28,994 nt of DNA, from positions 1-28,994 of IMG/VR virus record IMGVR_UViG_3300027742_000031. One strand, written 5' to 3'. The translations under genes were made by a program, and so were the position numbers. Below are positions 24,943-28,994 of the stretch, one piece after another. The DNA is from a virus. A model generated the notes under the pieces. It searched no databases. It was not told the origin of the DNA and was given only the letters and a program-made list of their open reading frames with translations. Numbering within the stretch: the first letter of the stretch is position 1; each line of letters opens with the position of its first letter.

Positions 24943-25137
24943 TTAAAAAATCTCTGGGCGCAGTTCTTTGCGCGTTACTTGGCCGCTTGTTGCCTTTTCG
25001 ATCTCGATGGCCCTTTCGGCGGTTATGCGCGTGCGCCCCGTTAGCCATTGGTAAACTAAGCCCTGGGACACCCCGATTCTGGCCCCTAGCTCTTTCTGGG
25101 TTGTCTCTGTGTTTTGGAGATAAGTCTGCAAGTCCAT
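24943..25137 (-). CDS. Cro-like repressor
   Basis: A 64-residue helix-turn-helix protein, the first gene of the early right operon, divergent from cI. The sequence LQNTETTQKELGARIGVSQGLVYQWLTGRTRITAERAIEIEKATSGQVTRKELRPEIF (residues 7-64) holds a complete five-helix HTH of the Cro/YdaS type, with the recognition helix at VSQGLVYQWL, and ends with the common motif VTRKELRP. AAGGCGA precedes ATG 25137. It should bind the operators just upstream and turn off cI during lytic growth. Confidence 0.85.
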   Translation of the reverse strand: MDLQTYLQNTETTQKELGARIGVSQGLVYQWLTGRTRITAERAIEIEKATSGQVTRKELRPEIF

Positions 25138-25148
25138 GTGTTTCGCCT

Positions 25149-25222
25149 TAGTTTATAAACTAGTAACCACTAGGATACCTATTTAAACCGTCAATAGCAA
25201 CGCTAGTGGACTAATTAATAGT
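25149..25222. promoter_or_regulatory. cro/cI operator region (oR-like)
   Basis: The 104 bases between cro and cI are packed with inverted repeats: TAGTTTATAAACTA (25149-25162, perfect), CTAGTAACCACTAG (25160-25173, perfect arms around AACC), TAGCAACGCTA (25195-25205) and ACTA-N5-TAGT (25210-25222). TAGT/ACTA half-sites recur seven times in 74 bases. TAGCAACGCTA occurs again, inverted, at 28602-28612, and the 18 bases 25191-25208 match the complement of 28574-28591 at 17 positions. CI and Cro probably bind here; I cannot say which protein prefers which repeat, and I could not fix the promoters. Confidence 0.75.
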
Positions 25223-25241: not shown

Positions 25242-26006
25242 ATGAAAAAAGAGAAGAGAAAAATGGACAAGTGGCAGGTTGATGACGCCTACCGACTGAA
25301 GAAGATTTTTTCTGAGCGGTCAGAGCTTAGCCAGGAGGCCTTCGGTGATAAGTTTAAAATTGGCTCCCAAGGGATGATATGGCAGTACCTTAACGCTAGA
25401 ACCCCGCTAAACCTTGCTGCAGCTATTAAGTTTGCGAAAGGGTTAAGAGTTAAGGTTTCCGACTTCAGCCCTAATCTTGCCGAGGAGTTAGCGCAGCCAC
25501 CTGGGAGCGGTCGCACGCAGCACGAGCCCAATGGTGAGCGAACTGACGACTTATATTTATGGGATAGCAATACACCGCTAGGCGAGGATGATGTTGATCT
25601 GCCGCTTCTTGAAGAAGTTGAGCTTTCGGCTGGCAATGGCGTATGCGAGGCGCAAGTAAATTACAATCAAAAAATGCGCTTCTCTAAATCCAGCTTAAGG
25701 CGCTGCAATGTCGATATAAATAATGCAGTTTGCGTAAAAGTCACCGGTAGCAGCATGAGCCCAGTGCTGCCGGATGGCTCTACGGTCGGCATAGACACAT
25801 CAAAAATAAGCATCACGGACGGCAAGATGTATGCGATTGATCACGGAGGCATGCTGCGCGTTAAATACCTTTATCGCATACCTGGCGGCGGAGTTAGAAT
25901 TAAAAGCTTTAATAGTGAAGAGTACGAGGATGAGAGCTACTCTAAGGAGCAGGCTGTAGAGATTAAAATCATTGGGCGAGTGTTTTGGCACTCAGTATTT
26001 TATTGA
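25242..26006 (+). CDS. CI-like repressor with S24 self-cleavage domain
   Basis: A 254-residue repressor that keeps the prophage silent. Residues 14 to 75 are a helix-turn-helix domain (LSQEAFGDKFKIGSQGMIWQYLNAR). A charged linker follows, then a LexA-type peptidase domain from residue 120. The self-cleavage site is A130-G131 (SAGNG), the nucleophile S171 in GSSMSPVLPDG and the general base K208 in LRVKYLY. So RecA-stimulated cleavage after DNA damage should induce the prophage. ATG 25242 has no clear ribosome site; ATG 25263 has a purine-rich AAGAGAAGAGAAAA before it and would give 247 residues. Divergent from cro. Confidence 0.92.
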   Translation: MKKEKRKMDKWQVDDAYRLKKIFSERSELSQEAFGDKFKIGSQGMIWQYLNARTPLNLAAAIKFAKGLRVKVSDFSPNLAEELAQPPGSGRTQHEPNGERTDDLYLWDSNTPLGEDDVDLPLLEEVELSAGNGVCEAQVNYNQKMRFSKSSLRRCNVDINNAVCVKVTGSSMSPVLPDGSTVGIDTSKISITDGKMYAIDHGGMLRVKYLYRIPGGGVRIKSFNSEEYEDESYSKEQAVEIKIIGRVFWHSVFY

Positions 26007-26025
26007 TAAACCAAGGGTGGTCGAA

Positions 26026-26652
26026 ATGAGATTATTAGTATTATCGCTAGTCATGATGTTAGCAGGCTGCGCATCTACAAACATGAGCGCCTATAAAGAT
26101 CCTGAATTTTCTGATACCAAGTACAGCTCATTCGTGGTGATTACGAATTTCAAAAGCCTTACAGATAGAGACTTCCTGGAATCAAGGATGTGCGACAAAC
26201 TCTCTCTTGTTGGCGTTGCATGCAAGAGAGGCCTTGACGTTTTCCCGCCAACAAGAGAGCTTTCTGAAATCAAGTGGATAAAGACTTTCCGGGATAGTGG
26301 AGCCGAGGCATTGATTTTTATTGAGCTTACTGGCGCATACAGTACGCAAACCTACATACCAGAAAGATCCATCACCACGGGAACATTATCATCGTTCGGC
26401 GACACAGCGACATATAGCGGGAAAACAAATACTTATGGTGGGCACGCAATAAGCAAACCGGTCGAGACTTACAAGATAACGGTTATGGATGGCAAGAGCG
26501 GGAAAACAGCGCTGTTGGCAACAAGTGAGACCGGCGGTAACGCAATGGCCAATCAGAACACTTTATCTATTTCGCTAACCTCGAAGTTGATTCAAACGCT
26601 AAGCAGTAATAGTTTGCTTGCAAGTGATGCCGGTGAGCCGCTAGCGCCATAG
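26026..26652 (+). CDS. lipoprotein of the accessory block
   Basis: I start at ATG 26026 because AAGG lies upstream and the sequence begins at once with a lipoprotein signal: MRLLVLSLVMMLAGC with the lipobox LAGC. The mature protein has about 190 residues (of 208 in all) with mixed alpha-beta composition: SSFVVITNFKSLTDRDFLESRMCDKLSLVG, ALIFIELTGAYSTQTYIP, KITVMDGKSGKTALLATSETGGN. The order is strand-helix-strand, like small envelope lipoproteins such as DUF4136-type proteins, but I cannot name the family. It is 19 bases after cI, so it may be co-transcribed from the prophage maintenance promoter and change the envelope of the lysogen, for example to exclude other phages. Confidence 0.65.
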   Translation: MRLLVLSLVMMLAGCASTNMSAYKDPEFSDTKYSSFVVITNFKSLTDRDFLESRMCDKLSLVGVACKRGLDVFPPTRELSEIKWIKTFRDSGAEALIFIELTGAYSTQTYIPERSITTGTLSSFGDTATYSGKTNTYGGHAISKPVETYKITVMDGKSGKTALLATSETGGNAMANQNTLSISLTSKLIQTLSSNSLLASDAGEPLAP

Positions 26653-26727
26653 CGCTGGAACCATGGCGTAACAATATAATGTGGCTGCCAAATATCATCA
26701 GGGAGGCGTAATGAAAACGGAAGCAGT

Positions 26728-27087
26728 TTGATTAAAGCCGCCTGGTTGCTGCTTGCGCTTCCAATGCTAGCCAGCGCCGAGCCTGAGCGCTTCTACCAAG
26801 ACGCCCACTGCAAAGGCAGTAAAGAGCACGTCTTGCATGATAGGACGCGCGTAGACTGCCTCACCGACTCTCACGCTATAGAGTACGACTTTGGCCGCAA
26901 GTGGGCCGAGGCCATAGGCCAGTCTTTGGGTTACGCCTTTGAGACAAACAAAAAGGCCGGCATCGTGCTTATTCTTGAGTCGCGAAAGGATTTAAAATAC
27001 TGGATTAAGCTCAATAGCATTATTGAGCACTACAGATTGCCTATTGATACCCGGAAGATTGAGGCCTGGGACAGGCTGGCTAGATAA
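26728..27087 (+). CDS. exported protein with PD-(D/E)XK nuclease-like motifs
   Basis: A 119-residue protein read from TTG 26728. A signal peptide (MIKAAWLLLALPMLASA, cut before EPERF) is followed by CKGSKEHVLHDRTRVDCLTDSHAIEYDFGRKWAEAIGQSLGYA (residues 28-70). D43, the E52-x-D54-x3-K58 group and Q65-x3-Y69 resemble the catalytic and QxxxY motifs of RecB-type PD-(D/E)XK nucleases, followed by the strand GIVLILES. If active, it would be a nuclease in the periplasm. The start is odd: ATG 26711 has a good ribosome site (GGGAGG) but its frame stops after six codons at TGA 26729, overlapping the TTG as TTGA. One extra T in TTT 26727-26729 would join both into MKTEAVLIKAAW. Confidence 0.6.
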   Translation: MIKAAWLLLALPMLASAEPERFYQDAHCKGSKEHVLHDRTRVDCLTDSHAIEYDFGRKWAEAIGQSLGYAFETNKKAGIVLILESRKDLKYWIKLNSIIEHYRLPIDTRKIEAWDRLAR

Positions 27088-27320
27088 TAAGTAAGTCTTT
27101 GAGATAGAGGCGCCTTACGTTTAAGCAGCTGCTCTACATAAGCCTTATCCTCGCCTACACAAGCATCATAAACGTAATCCACTATTTGGCTATGTAGCTT
27201 TTCCTTCGCTTCTTCGAGTGTATCACCCTGCGCAGCCAGGCATAAATCAATACACACGGCCACCCAAAGGCCATCTTTTTTAGTGGCATAAGCTCTAAGA
27301 ATTAGGTTGTTGACATGCAT
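27030..27320 (-). CDS. HicB-like protein, without a HicA partner
   Basis: A 96-residue protein. Residues 5 to 50 (LILRAYATKKDGLWVAVCIDLCLAAQGDTLEEAKEKLHSQI, cited by span) have the strand-strand-helix pattern of HicB/DUF1902 proteins, which fold like a degraded RNase H and act as antitoxins to HicA. No HicA-type toxin lies next to it and no DNA-binding tail is obvious; the C-terminal 40 residues are a basic, hydrophobic helix (LKRKAPLSQRLTYYLASL). AAGGAG precedes ATG 27320. Its 3' end overlaps that of the exported nuclease-like gene by 58 bases, tail to tail. Confidence 0.65.
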   Translation of the reverse strand: MHVNNLILRAYATKKDGLWVAVCIDLCLAAQGDTLEEAKEKLHSQIVDYVYDACVGEDKAYVEQLLKRKAPLSQRLTYYLASLSQASIFRVSIGNL

Positions 27321-27474: not shown

Positions 27475-28035
27475 ATGCTAGTCACAAGAGAGCGCGATAA
27501 AATGTTTCACGCGCTCATTTACTTTACCAAAAATGTGCAAAAGCCAGGGAAAACAAAGCTCTTCAAGTTGCTTAATTTCTTGGACTTCTCTCATTTTGAA
27601 AAAACAGGCCGCTCGGTTACAGGCCTGGAGTATTCTGCGTGGGAAAGAGGGCCTGTGCCTACCGAGCTATATGAAGAATGGAAATCTCCTACCCCAGAGT
27701 TTATAACGCATTGCTATAAAGAGCAGGTCAAAGCAGGTTCTTTTACGCGCCAAGTGCTGAAGCCCAGGCATAGTTTTAATGAAAAGTTCTTTTCGAAATA
27801 TGAATTGAAGCTAATGAAGAGCCTGGCCAAACAGCACTTTAATGATAACGCCGATGAAATGTCAGAGCTATCGCACTTCGACACAGGCTGCTGGGCTGAA
27901 GTCTGGAATAGCGGCGAAGGTTCCGGTGAGCGCATCCCTTATGAGTTAGTGTTGCTGCGTAGAAATAATAATGCCGACAAAGCCGTTATGGAGCGGCACA
28001 CAGAAGACCTGGAAATACGGAATAATTACGCATGA
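27475..28035 (+). CDS. Panacea-domain (SocA/DUF4065-like) antitoxin
   Basis: A 186-residue protein of the Panacea family, known from work on SocA and PanA as antitoxins that pair with many unrelated toxins. The motif appears over residues 9-70: KMFHALIYFTKNVQKPGKTKLFKLLNFLDFSHFEKTGRSVTGLEYSAWERGPVPTELYEEW (cited by span), with the typical K-x-K-LFKLLNFLDF helix and the Y-x-A-W-x-x-GPVP turn. The remainder is helical and holds the conserved LSHFDTG-W pattern (about residue 132). GGAG precedes ATG 27475. The next gene starts inside its stop (ATGA), as in toxin-antitoxin pairs with antitoxin first. Confidence 0.82.
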   Translation: MLVTRERDKMFHALIYFTKNVQKPGKTKLFKLLNFLDFSHFEKTGRSVTGLEYSAWERGPVPTELYEEWKSPTPEFITHCYKEQVKAGSFTRQVLKPRHSFNEKFFSKYELKLMKSLAKQHFNDNADEMSELSHFDTGCWAEVWNSGEGSGERIPYELVLLRRNNNADKAVMERHTEDLEIRNNYA

Positions 28036-28451
28036 TTCCCGTTGTGGGTGACGTGTTATTTGATGAAGAGTTCGTGTTCTCTGATGGCAAAAAAGGCAAG
28101 AAGTGGTTCGTGGTTCTCGCTGATGTAGGCGATGATACCAGCAATATCTATGTTGCCAGGGCCACATCAAAAGAAAAATCTCCCAAGGTTGAAGCGTGTC
28201 ATTTAGACGATTTTGAGCCTGTTTATTTTTTGCCTGCAGGAAAAACCTTTAAGGTTGATACATGGCTGCAATTCGACCAAGTTCTAATATTCGATTTCTC
28301 CAGGGCAGAACGGCTCAAGCGCGCCTCATTCAGCAATAAGCAGCTCAGCATGCCAACTATGCACAAAGTCATTAGCTGCGCGGCGCAAAGCGATCATATA
28401 GACGGCTACACCGAAGAGGCCCTGCTTAAGCAAGCCGAAATATTCAAATAG
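28032..28451 (+). CDS. putative toxin partner of the Panacea antitoxin
   Basis: A 139-residue protein coupled by ATGA to the antitoxin gene. The start, VGDVLFDEEFVFSDGKKGKKWFVVLADVGDDTSNIYVARATSK (residues 5-47), resembles the SH3-like barrel of MazF/PemK-type proteins (GD-V/L near the N terminus, then a strand and a T/S pair), but lacks an obvious full MazF active site. The C terminus is helical (MHKVISCAAQSDHIDGYTEEALLKQAEIF). In Panacea systems the toxin is highly variable, so the true activity cannot be read from sequence; an RNase or a MazF-fold relative is possible. The strong terminator 50 bases downstream closes the operon. Confidence 0.7.
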   Translation: MIPVVGDVLFDEEFVFSDGKKGKKWFVVLADVGDDTSNIYVARATSKEKSPKVEACHLDDFEPVYFLPAGKTFKVDTWLQFDQVLIFDFSRAERLKRASFSNKQLSMPTMHKVISCAAQSDHIDGYTEEALLKQAEIFK

Positions 28452-28501
28452 CCCCCTCTTATACCCCAAACCCATAACCCGCCTCACGCAGGCACCTCAT
28501 G

Positions 28502-28523
28502 CCCGCACTACGCGGGTTTTTTT
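28502..28523 (+). terminator. strong intrinsic terminator after the toxin gene
   Basis: CCCGC and GCGGG (28502-28506 and 28512-28516) form a GC-rich stem followed by seven Ts. A second pair, GCAGGCAC (28487-28494) and GTGCCTGC (28524-28531), flanks it as an outer stem. It insulates the cI-side accessory block from the pL-like promoter. Confidence 0.88.
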
Positions 28524-28573
28524 GTGCCTGCTGGGTTGCTTTAATCGATCAATGTGAAAATAAATAACAAAAA

Positions 28574-28614
28574 CACTAGCATTGCTATTGATCTATAGTA
28601 ATAGCGTTGCTAGT
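28574..28614. promoter_or_regulatory. oL/pL-like operator pair and promoter
   Basis: Two copies of TAGC-N3-GCTA, at 28577-28587 (TAGCATTGCTA) and 28602-28612 (TAGCGTTGCTA), have centres 25 bases apart. They also form the arms of a larger inverted repeat, ACTAGCATTGCTATT against AATAGCGTTGCTAGT, which match at 13 of 15 positions. The second is the exact complement of TAGCAACGCTA between cro and cI. TTGATC (28588-28593) and TAGTAT (28611-28616), spaced by 17 bases, could be a promoter reading right. This matches oL/pL in lambda: CI-controlled, on the far side of cI from cro. Confidence 0.75.
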
Positions 28615-28652
28615 ATATTCCCATGCCTAACCAACAACGCACGGAGCAAAGC

Positions 28653-28994
28653 ATGGAAATCCTAATACTAGAAAATAAAGACTTTAACGAAAACGGCGAA
28701 TATATCGGCCCAGAAAATCTTAGTGATTTTAACGGCAGCATAGAAATTAATGCCGATTTTAAAATTTGTAAATTTGGGGCGTTAAAAGTAACTGGAAGAA
28801 TCTTTGCCAAATTCGGCATTAAGGCTGGCGATGGCATTGAGGCTGGCGATGGCATTGAGGCTGGCTGTGGCATTAAGGCTGGCGATGGCATTGAGGCTGG
28901 CTGGGGCATTGAGGCTGGCTGGGGCATTGAGGCTGGCTGGGGCATTGAGGCTGGCGATGGCATTGAGGCTGGCTGGGGCATTGAGGCTGGCTGT
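28653..28994 (+). CDS. hexapeptide-repeat protein, first gene of the left operon (partial)
   Basis: An open frame starting at ATG 28653 (GGAG lies 8 bases upstream; ATG 28623 in the same frame is possible) that runs off the window, so the stop is not seen and at least 114 residues exist. Residues 1 to 55 (MEILILENKDFNENGEYIGP, then LSDFNGSIEINADFKICKF and LKVTGRIFAKFG) look like a short beta-rich start. From residue 56 the protein is a run of IEAGWG/IKAGDG hexapeptides. Isoleucine every six residues with glycines suggests a beta-helix-like or layered repeat fold. Related phage proteins with GIEAG repeats are known to me only as hypothetical. It should be an early lytic gene under CI control. 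Function unknown. Confidence 0.75.
   Translation, partial: MEILILENKDFNENGEYIGPENLSDFNGSIEINADFKICKFGALKVTGRIFAKFGIKAGDGIEAGDGIEAGCGIKAGDGIEAGWGIEAGWGIEAGWGIEAGDGIEAGWGIEAGC
28818..28994 (+). repeat. 18-bp tandem repeat encoding IEAGWG/IKAGDG hexapeptides
   Basis: Almost ten units of 18 bases, ATTGAGGCTGGCTGGGGC and variants (ATTAAG for ATTGAG, GATGGC or TGTGGC for TGGGGC), run head to tail to the window's end. Frame is kept in every unit. The regular unit can expand or contract by slippage or recombination without a frameshift. A minus-strand open frame over the same bases is a by-product. Confidence 0.95.

Follow-up and report, generated by a model that had tools for sequence, protein, structure and literature searches.

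A hexapeptide-repeat protein of uncultivated phages with a predicted beta-solenoid fold and a rapidly changing surface

Introduction

The left-handed beta-helix of LpxA, LpxD and GlmU (Hexapep, PF00132) is built on a six-residue period, described by the pattern [LIV]-[GAED]-X2-[STAV]-X, with the aliphatic residues pointing inward. Pentapeptide-repeat proteins, including Qnr and MfpA, are beta-solenoid rods of even shorter period, with the five-residue pattern A(D/N)LXX, and some of them are DNA mimics. Bactofilins are triangular beta-helices as well. TAL effectors consist of helical 34-residue repeats that carry repeat-variable residues and are reshuffled by recombination between units, whereas diversity-generating retroelements vary their targets at template adenines. 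For mobile elements, a report on Borg amino-acid tandem-repeat proteins describes in-frame, fast-evolving repeats under protein-level selection, which are commonly intrinsically disordered and often reside in extracellular or membrane proteins (PMC9879509).

Here, we describe a phage protein family built of I-[E/K]-A-G-X-G hexads, starting from a gene in a DNA stretch of 28,994 bp (referred to as the window) that comprises the whole linear virus record IMGVR_UViG_3300027742_000031. The family resembles the left-handed beta-helix in its six-residue period, its inward aliphatic residue and, probably, its three hexads per coil. However, its repeats are near perfect, it has no catalytic domain, it lacks a match to the Pfam hexapeptide profile at an E value of ≤1, and its Foldseek E values are ≥0.56. 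It has Ile at position i but not the small residue at i-2, the place of X, where large or charged residues predominate and W, E, S, L and D are the main letters (approximately 21% S/T/A/V). With TAL effectors it shares fixed scaffold repeats, few hypervariable residues per unit and recombinational reshuffling; in contrast, its hexads are predicted to form a beta-solenoid, are not homologous to TAL repeats and are known without a target or code. The period of six residues (18 bp), the near-neutral variable surface and the lack of a Pfam match set it apart from the pentapeptide-repeat proteins. Bactofilins, with their triangular beta-helix, are among its weak Foldseek matches; unlike them, the family combines a near-perfect variable tandem array with a place among phage early genes, and it shows no sequence or profile match to them. 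Its pattern of variation is unlike that of diversity-generating retroelement targets, in that codon 2 of the hexad changes only between G and A at its first base while the A at its second base is kept. The hexad family shares with the Borg proteins its location on a mobile element and tandem repeats that evolve fast and in frame under protein-level selection, but differs in its predicted ordered solenoid and in lacking a signal peptide by inspection.

Results and discussion

Phage background and control region of the repeat gene

Judged from its gene content, which includes a P22 tail-spike head-binding domain, a P22 tail accessory factor, Terminase_3 and NinG, the window phage seems to be a temperate podovirus of the P22 type. 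Its large terminase shares 64% identity with the counterpart in Vibrio phage 1.275.O, and the annotation of the 20.0- to 37.9-kb region of that phage names no gene as a repeat protein. The presumed regulator is a CI-like repressor with helix-turn-helix and peptidase S24 domains (25242 to 26006, plus strand; Pfam PF00717, 2.4e-21; PHROG 4, 1.1e-43), divergent from which lies a Cro/YdaS-like repressor gene (24943 to 25137, minus strand; PF15943, 1.6e-18).

An inverted repeat (28570 to 28589 and 28600 to 28619) is located directly upstream of the repeat gene. Here, a putative CI-type operator, ACTAGCATTGCTATT, occupies positions 28575 to 28589 on the plus strand without mismatches, as one half of an inverted pair. 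A motif and inverted-repeat search yielded a second operator-like site, ACTAGCAACGCTATT, at 28600 to 28614 on the minus strand and another match, ACTAGCGTTGCTATT, in the cI-cro intergenic region (25193 to 25207, minus strand). The 15-bp motif ACTAGC-N3-GCTATT has three mismatch-free sites in the window, one between cI and cro and the inverted pair before the repeat gene. As this pattern was derived from the very sites that it finds, the informative part is that two separate intergenic regions have it in common. A terminator-like hairpin with a T-run (28501 to 28517, plus strand) parts the repeat gene from a SocA/Panacea-domain gene pair, leaving it as the first gene behind its own operator/promoter region. 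The initial annotation had proposed such a CI-controlled, early position, which is supported by the shared operator motif, as a putative control element, together with the early-gene neighbors of the relatives described below.

Other genes of this immunity region are noted in passing. In the pair upstream of the terminator (27475 to 28451, plus strand), the SocA/Panacea-domain gene (PF13274, 4.1e-15) overlaps a partner encoding 139 amino acids (aa) without a database match; it is probably a toxin-antitoxin or defense pair. For the gene that precedes the repeat gene (28032 to 28451), IMG/VR contains no recognizable relative. A 96-aa protein, HicB-like by eye, is encoded at 27030 to 27320 on the strand opposite to its neighbors (minus strand; phrog_12841, 7.8e-31). 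Downstream of cI, two genes at 25972 to 27087 (plus strand) have signal-peptide-like starts, the first of them lipoprotein-like, and are possible lysogenic-conversion genes.

The repeat gene and its array

The repeat gene extends from the ATG at position 28653 to 28994 on the plus strand (114 codons), open up to the final base of the window. A ribosome-binding-site-like GGAG (28643 to 28646, plus strand) lies 6 nucleotides ahead of this ATG, which coincides with the N-terminal start of the family members. The first 55 residues (28653 to 28817, plus strand) contain no repeats and form an N-cap, conserved in the family by alignment and predicted to continue into the solenoid. The hexad array follows (28818 to 28994, plus strand), with nine complete units and five of the six residues of a tenth: IKAGDG IEAGDG IEAGCG IKAGDG IEAGWG IEAGWG IEAGWG IEAGDG IEAGWG IEAGC. 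Position 5 of the unit (X) is occupied by D, W or C, and position 2 by E or K. Tandem Repeats Finder reports a period of 18 bp with 10.0 copies and 89% matches at 28815 to 28994.

The open hexad-repeat frame of the initial annotation is confirmed by translation, by Tandem Repeats Finder and by the same architecture in hundreds of other viral contigs, a recurrence that shows that the array is not a product of chance. Its count of at least ten units stands if the incomplete tenth is included. It had described a single variable position with W, D or C; X is truly variable, but there are two variable outward positions, E/K and X, instead of one. Alignments with relatives also bear out that the N-terminal ~55 residues are conserved in other phages.

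The gene is 3'-truncated because the contig stops within the array; the N-cap and array are present in this copy, and the position of a C-cap would fall past the contig end. Many relatives are likewise cut inside their arrays (e.g., L004, L012 and L036), as expected if short-read assembly breaks down in repeats.

Distribution and architecture of the family

Relatives confirmed by tblastn numbered 160, 202, 182 and 288 in four overlapping viral scans and 48 in one genome scan, amounting to at least 288 in IMG/VR and 48 in GTDB genomes. The genomic relatives, mostly from metagenome bins, represent many phyla and include Proteobacteria, Firmicutes, Planctomycetes, Verrucomicrobia, Acidimicrobia and Thaumarchaeota, and complete copies occur in the cultured bacteria Ruminiclostridium cellobioparum, Paenibacillus senegalimassiliensis and Aquitalea aquatica. 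Hundreds of uncultivated phages carry a family that is absent from the tested Pfam, NCBIfam and PHROGs models: none gave a convincing match, the relatives produced weak unrelated matches only, and the window protein matched nothing in Pfam at an E value of ≤1. Sequence matches in the PDB (5vj4, 9e5c and 8uut) were discarded as A/G/E-rich or low-complexity proteins that are not homologues. Literature searches on the repeat motif, on hexapeptide repeats in phages and on hypervariable phage solenoids returned nothing on the hexad-repeat family.

In complete members, the N-cap is followed by 6 to 36 hexads and, in most cases, by a C-cap with the conserved pattern 'LRIFAGLCxWR'. Class 1, which includes the window protein, has the N-cap pattern METLKITKxDL...FxGHIEIExxLGxVxF..., while class 2 (e.g., L107 from R. 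cellobioparum and L100 from P. senegalimassiliensis) joins a different N-terminal domain to the same type of array. Where the 3' end can be read, most members terminate in an 'IFAGL'-type C-cap (72 of class 1 and 25 of class 2). A few end directly after the array, including L003, a close N-cap relative of the window protein that ranked among the top two matches in the first viral scan.

Among annotated phages, queries with the window protein (tblastn, phage collection) and with L013 match only the ctKR88 group, and a class 2 query matches two unannotated fecal phage records. The relative in phage ctKR88 itself (L082, MW202524.1, 6001 to 6420) has only about three hexads, and its conserved C-cap runs on in another frame (tblastn in two pieces), the result of a true frameshift or of an error in sequencing.

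Gene neighborhood of the relatives

The relatives sit among early recombination and replication genes. Matches to known families among 136 near neighbors include helicases, exonucleases, RecT/Bet annealing proteins, SSB, Gam-like proteins, an antirepressor and methyltransferases. The nearest genes are mostly on the strand of the family gene (33 of 43 upstream and 35 of 41 downstream). Clustering of these neighborhoods revealed no conserved partner gene; in this respect, the family gene resembles a mobile accessory gene within the early region. A surrounding defense system was considered and set aside, as the PADLOC matches among the neighbors are mostly methyltransferases and nucleases. No reverse transcriptase is present among the 25 neighbor families listed. 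Annealing proteins that the phages encode nearby could plausibly drive array turnover.

Predicted fold

The initial annotation had suggested a stacked beta fold. This agrees with AlphaFold models of two relatives and with a charge pattern in the arrays. The model of L018, which has 19 hexads, reaches a pLDDT of 78.3 and a pTM of 0.61, with pLDDT values of 82 to 95 in the N-cap and over the initial half of the array; that of L013 has a pLDDT of 83.5 and a pTM of 0.52. In the L018 model, every hexad contributes a strand, with (G)I-[EK]-A as the strand and G-X as the turn, and a single solenoid runs through N-cap, array and C-cap. The N-cap contains strands at high pLDDT in the models of the relatives. 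The family is accordingly predicted to be a beta-solenoid in which the turn is G-X-G and both E/K and X face outward.

Two Foldseek searches against the PDB gave no significant match to a solved structure (best E values, 0.69 and 0.56). The non-significant matches (E of about 0.5 or more) include LpxD, GlmU, bactofilin and ice-binding proteins, with LpxD, GlmU and other beta-solenoids as the best matches of the L018 model. A single match in BFVD is significant, to an uncharacterized Caudovirales protein.

Within arrays, the E/K charges are anticorrelated at a lag of three hexads but show no clear anticorrelation at the other lags between 1 and 9. The discovery set of 83 arrays gave a z score of -4.8 (sign test, P = 1.1e-5), and a replication set of 45 arrays was weaker (z of -2.0; sign test not significant). 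Across all 129 non-redundant arrays, z equals -5.1 (sign test, 5.9e-5), and 54.2% of pairs at lag 3 are of opposite charge, versus approximately 47% at other lags. The effect size is modest, and the permutation null does not account for descent shared within arrays; we therefore take this as support rather than proof. Most likely, three hexads make up one coil of 18 residues, the length of a coil in a triangular beta-helix, whether left- or right-handed.

Variation within and between arrays

Diversity was calculated for 106 non-redundant arrays comprising 1,502 perfect units. The silent third positions of the I, A, G and G codons show a mean within-array diversity of 0.034, and exactly 0 in 76 of the 106 arrays, whereas the base that toggles between Glu and Lys (E1) reaches 0.479 and the X codon 0.456 and 0.581 at its first and second bases, respectively. 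E1 diversity exceeds silent diversity in 105 arrays and falls below it in none. Codon 2 toggles between G and A at its first base only, with the second base fixed as A (E2 diversity, 0.019). Between phages, the same silent positions differ widely (diversity, 0.25 to 0.68). Silent sites that are uniform within arrays in which E/K and X vary point to recombinational homogenization combined with strong selection for outward variety.

At position X, Trp is present in 107 of 111 arrays and accounts for a mean of 31% of residues, while Pro never occurs. Each phage draws on a small X alphabet (median, 4 letters). Autocorrelation and periodic placement of X (Trp stacking), tested across arrays, revealed no pattern and no preferred order.

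Repeat number and the variable position, whose comparison among related phages the initial annotation had envisaged, both change fast. L033 and L054 have 2.5-kb flanks that are 100% identical on both sides but contain 12 and 22 units, respectively. As L033 corresponds to L054 without the segment that separates two occurrences of the three-unit word EL-ES-KW, the difference can be explained by one deletion between repeated units. With nearly identical flanks, L052 exceeds L038 by a block of five units, and L130 exceeds L133 by four units; in L049 and L081, the X letters differ although the flanks are about 92% alike. These repeat numbers were taken from metagenome assemblies with possible miscounts, and assembly error could contribute to single length cases; it would not produce the contrast between silent and replacement sites in more than 100 arrays.

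Possible functions of the hexad-repeat proteins

A letter-perfect scaffold, varying outward residues and length changes between otherwise identical genomes usually mark molecular conflict, which makes the family a candidate early host-interaction or counter-defense protein. Its surface behaves as if under pressure to keep changing, with the scaffold fixed and the outward residues and repeat number moving fast. The explanation that we favor, with about as much doubt as confidence, is that these proteins are early, cytoplasmic phage beta-solenoid rods encoded by a self-recombining array, whose variable surface meets a changing host factor. The components of this explanation differ in standing. 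Directly observed features are the family and its architecture, the position of the relatives among early genes, the contrast between uniform silent and variable outward sites, and the gain or loss of blocks. The solenoid with three hexads per coil is supported by prediction and statistics. From these, we infer an early-expressed multivalent binding surface that would face a changing host factor in counter-defense or takeover. Each hexad would form one short strand with I and A inward and E/K outward, the G-X-G turn would display X, and E/K residues of adjacent coils would tend to pair. Recombination of the DNA array with itself would keep the silent sites uniform and add or remove whole blocks in frame, while selection would maintain mixed E/K and a varied X. 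Against this explanation, no neighboring gene is sufficiently conserved to point to a partner, and the lack of a preferred order of X is a poor fit to one defined binding site.

A possible but less probable alternative is a multivalent sponge, in which the rod would bind and withdraw a small molecule or peptide (e.g., a nucleotide signal) in many copies via Trp and charged side chains, so that repeat count and composition would matter and order would not. The prevalence of Trp, the random order of X and the shifts of array length in large blocks are all consistent with it. However, the different X letters of L049 and L081 behind such similar flanks would be odd for a fixed ligand.

We consider it unlikely that the protein is a structural rod or filament that self-assembles within the infected cell in a bactofilin-like manner, with X as a loosely constrained surface. 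Although the model joins both caps and the array in a single solenoid and bactofilin 6rib is among the non-significant Foldseek matches (E value, 1.5), the family has no Pfam match to bactofilin or any other family, and a polymer interface should conserve surface residues, whereas the surface is the most variable part here. Also unlikely is a modular recognition rod, the beta-solenoid counterpart of TAL-effector arrays, in which each X (with E/K) would make one contact and recombination of 18-bp units would re-tune binding or escape within a few generations.

Mimicry of DNA against restriction or gyrase, as in pentapeptide-repeat proteins (Qnr/MfpA), was rejected as very improbable. It would suit a beta-solenoid of the early region that adjoins DNA methyltransferases in several phages, but the mean net charge is just -0.36 per hexad (range, -1.30 to +0.57), close to neutral where steady acidity would be expected, and pentapeptide-repeat matches are absent. 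DNA binding by the window protein, also raised in the initial annotation, receives no support from the net charge or from the failed family matches. Finally, neutral expansion by replication slippage into a low-complexity protein with no selected function, to which tandem 18-bp repeats of rapidly changing length are prone, was dismissed as scarcely credible because drift cannot yield near-invariant silent sites beside highly variable E1 and X codons, Pro is missing from X, and the caps are conserved across unrelated phages.

Independent of its function, the hexad offers a natural template for designed beta-solenoids in which the turn residue can be freely chosen.

Additional repeat proteins at family loci

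Several near neighbors of family genes are themselves repetitive. At L025 (6823 to 7000), a neighboring gene encodes a further perfect tandem repeat with the four-residue unit (A/T)QSV, and a DUF6745-type repeat protein lies near L017. A link between the family and such xxSV repeat proteins (DUF6745-like) was dropped, as it came down to one distinct locus. One near neighbor matches the YdcK beta-solenoid repeat (PF18836, 1.8e-27), placing a second solenoid protein beside the hexad gene. In addition, L095 (6608 to 7770) and L098 each contain two separate hexad-array frames, in L098 on opposite strands, which suggests duplicate family genes at these loci.
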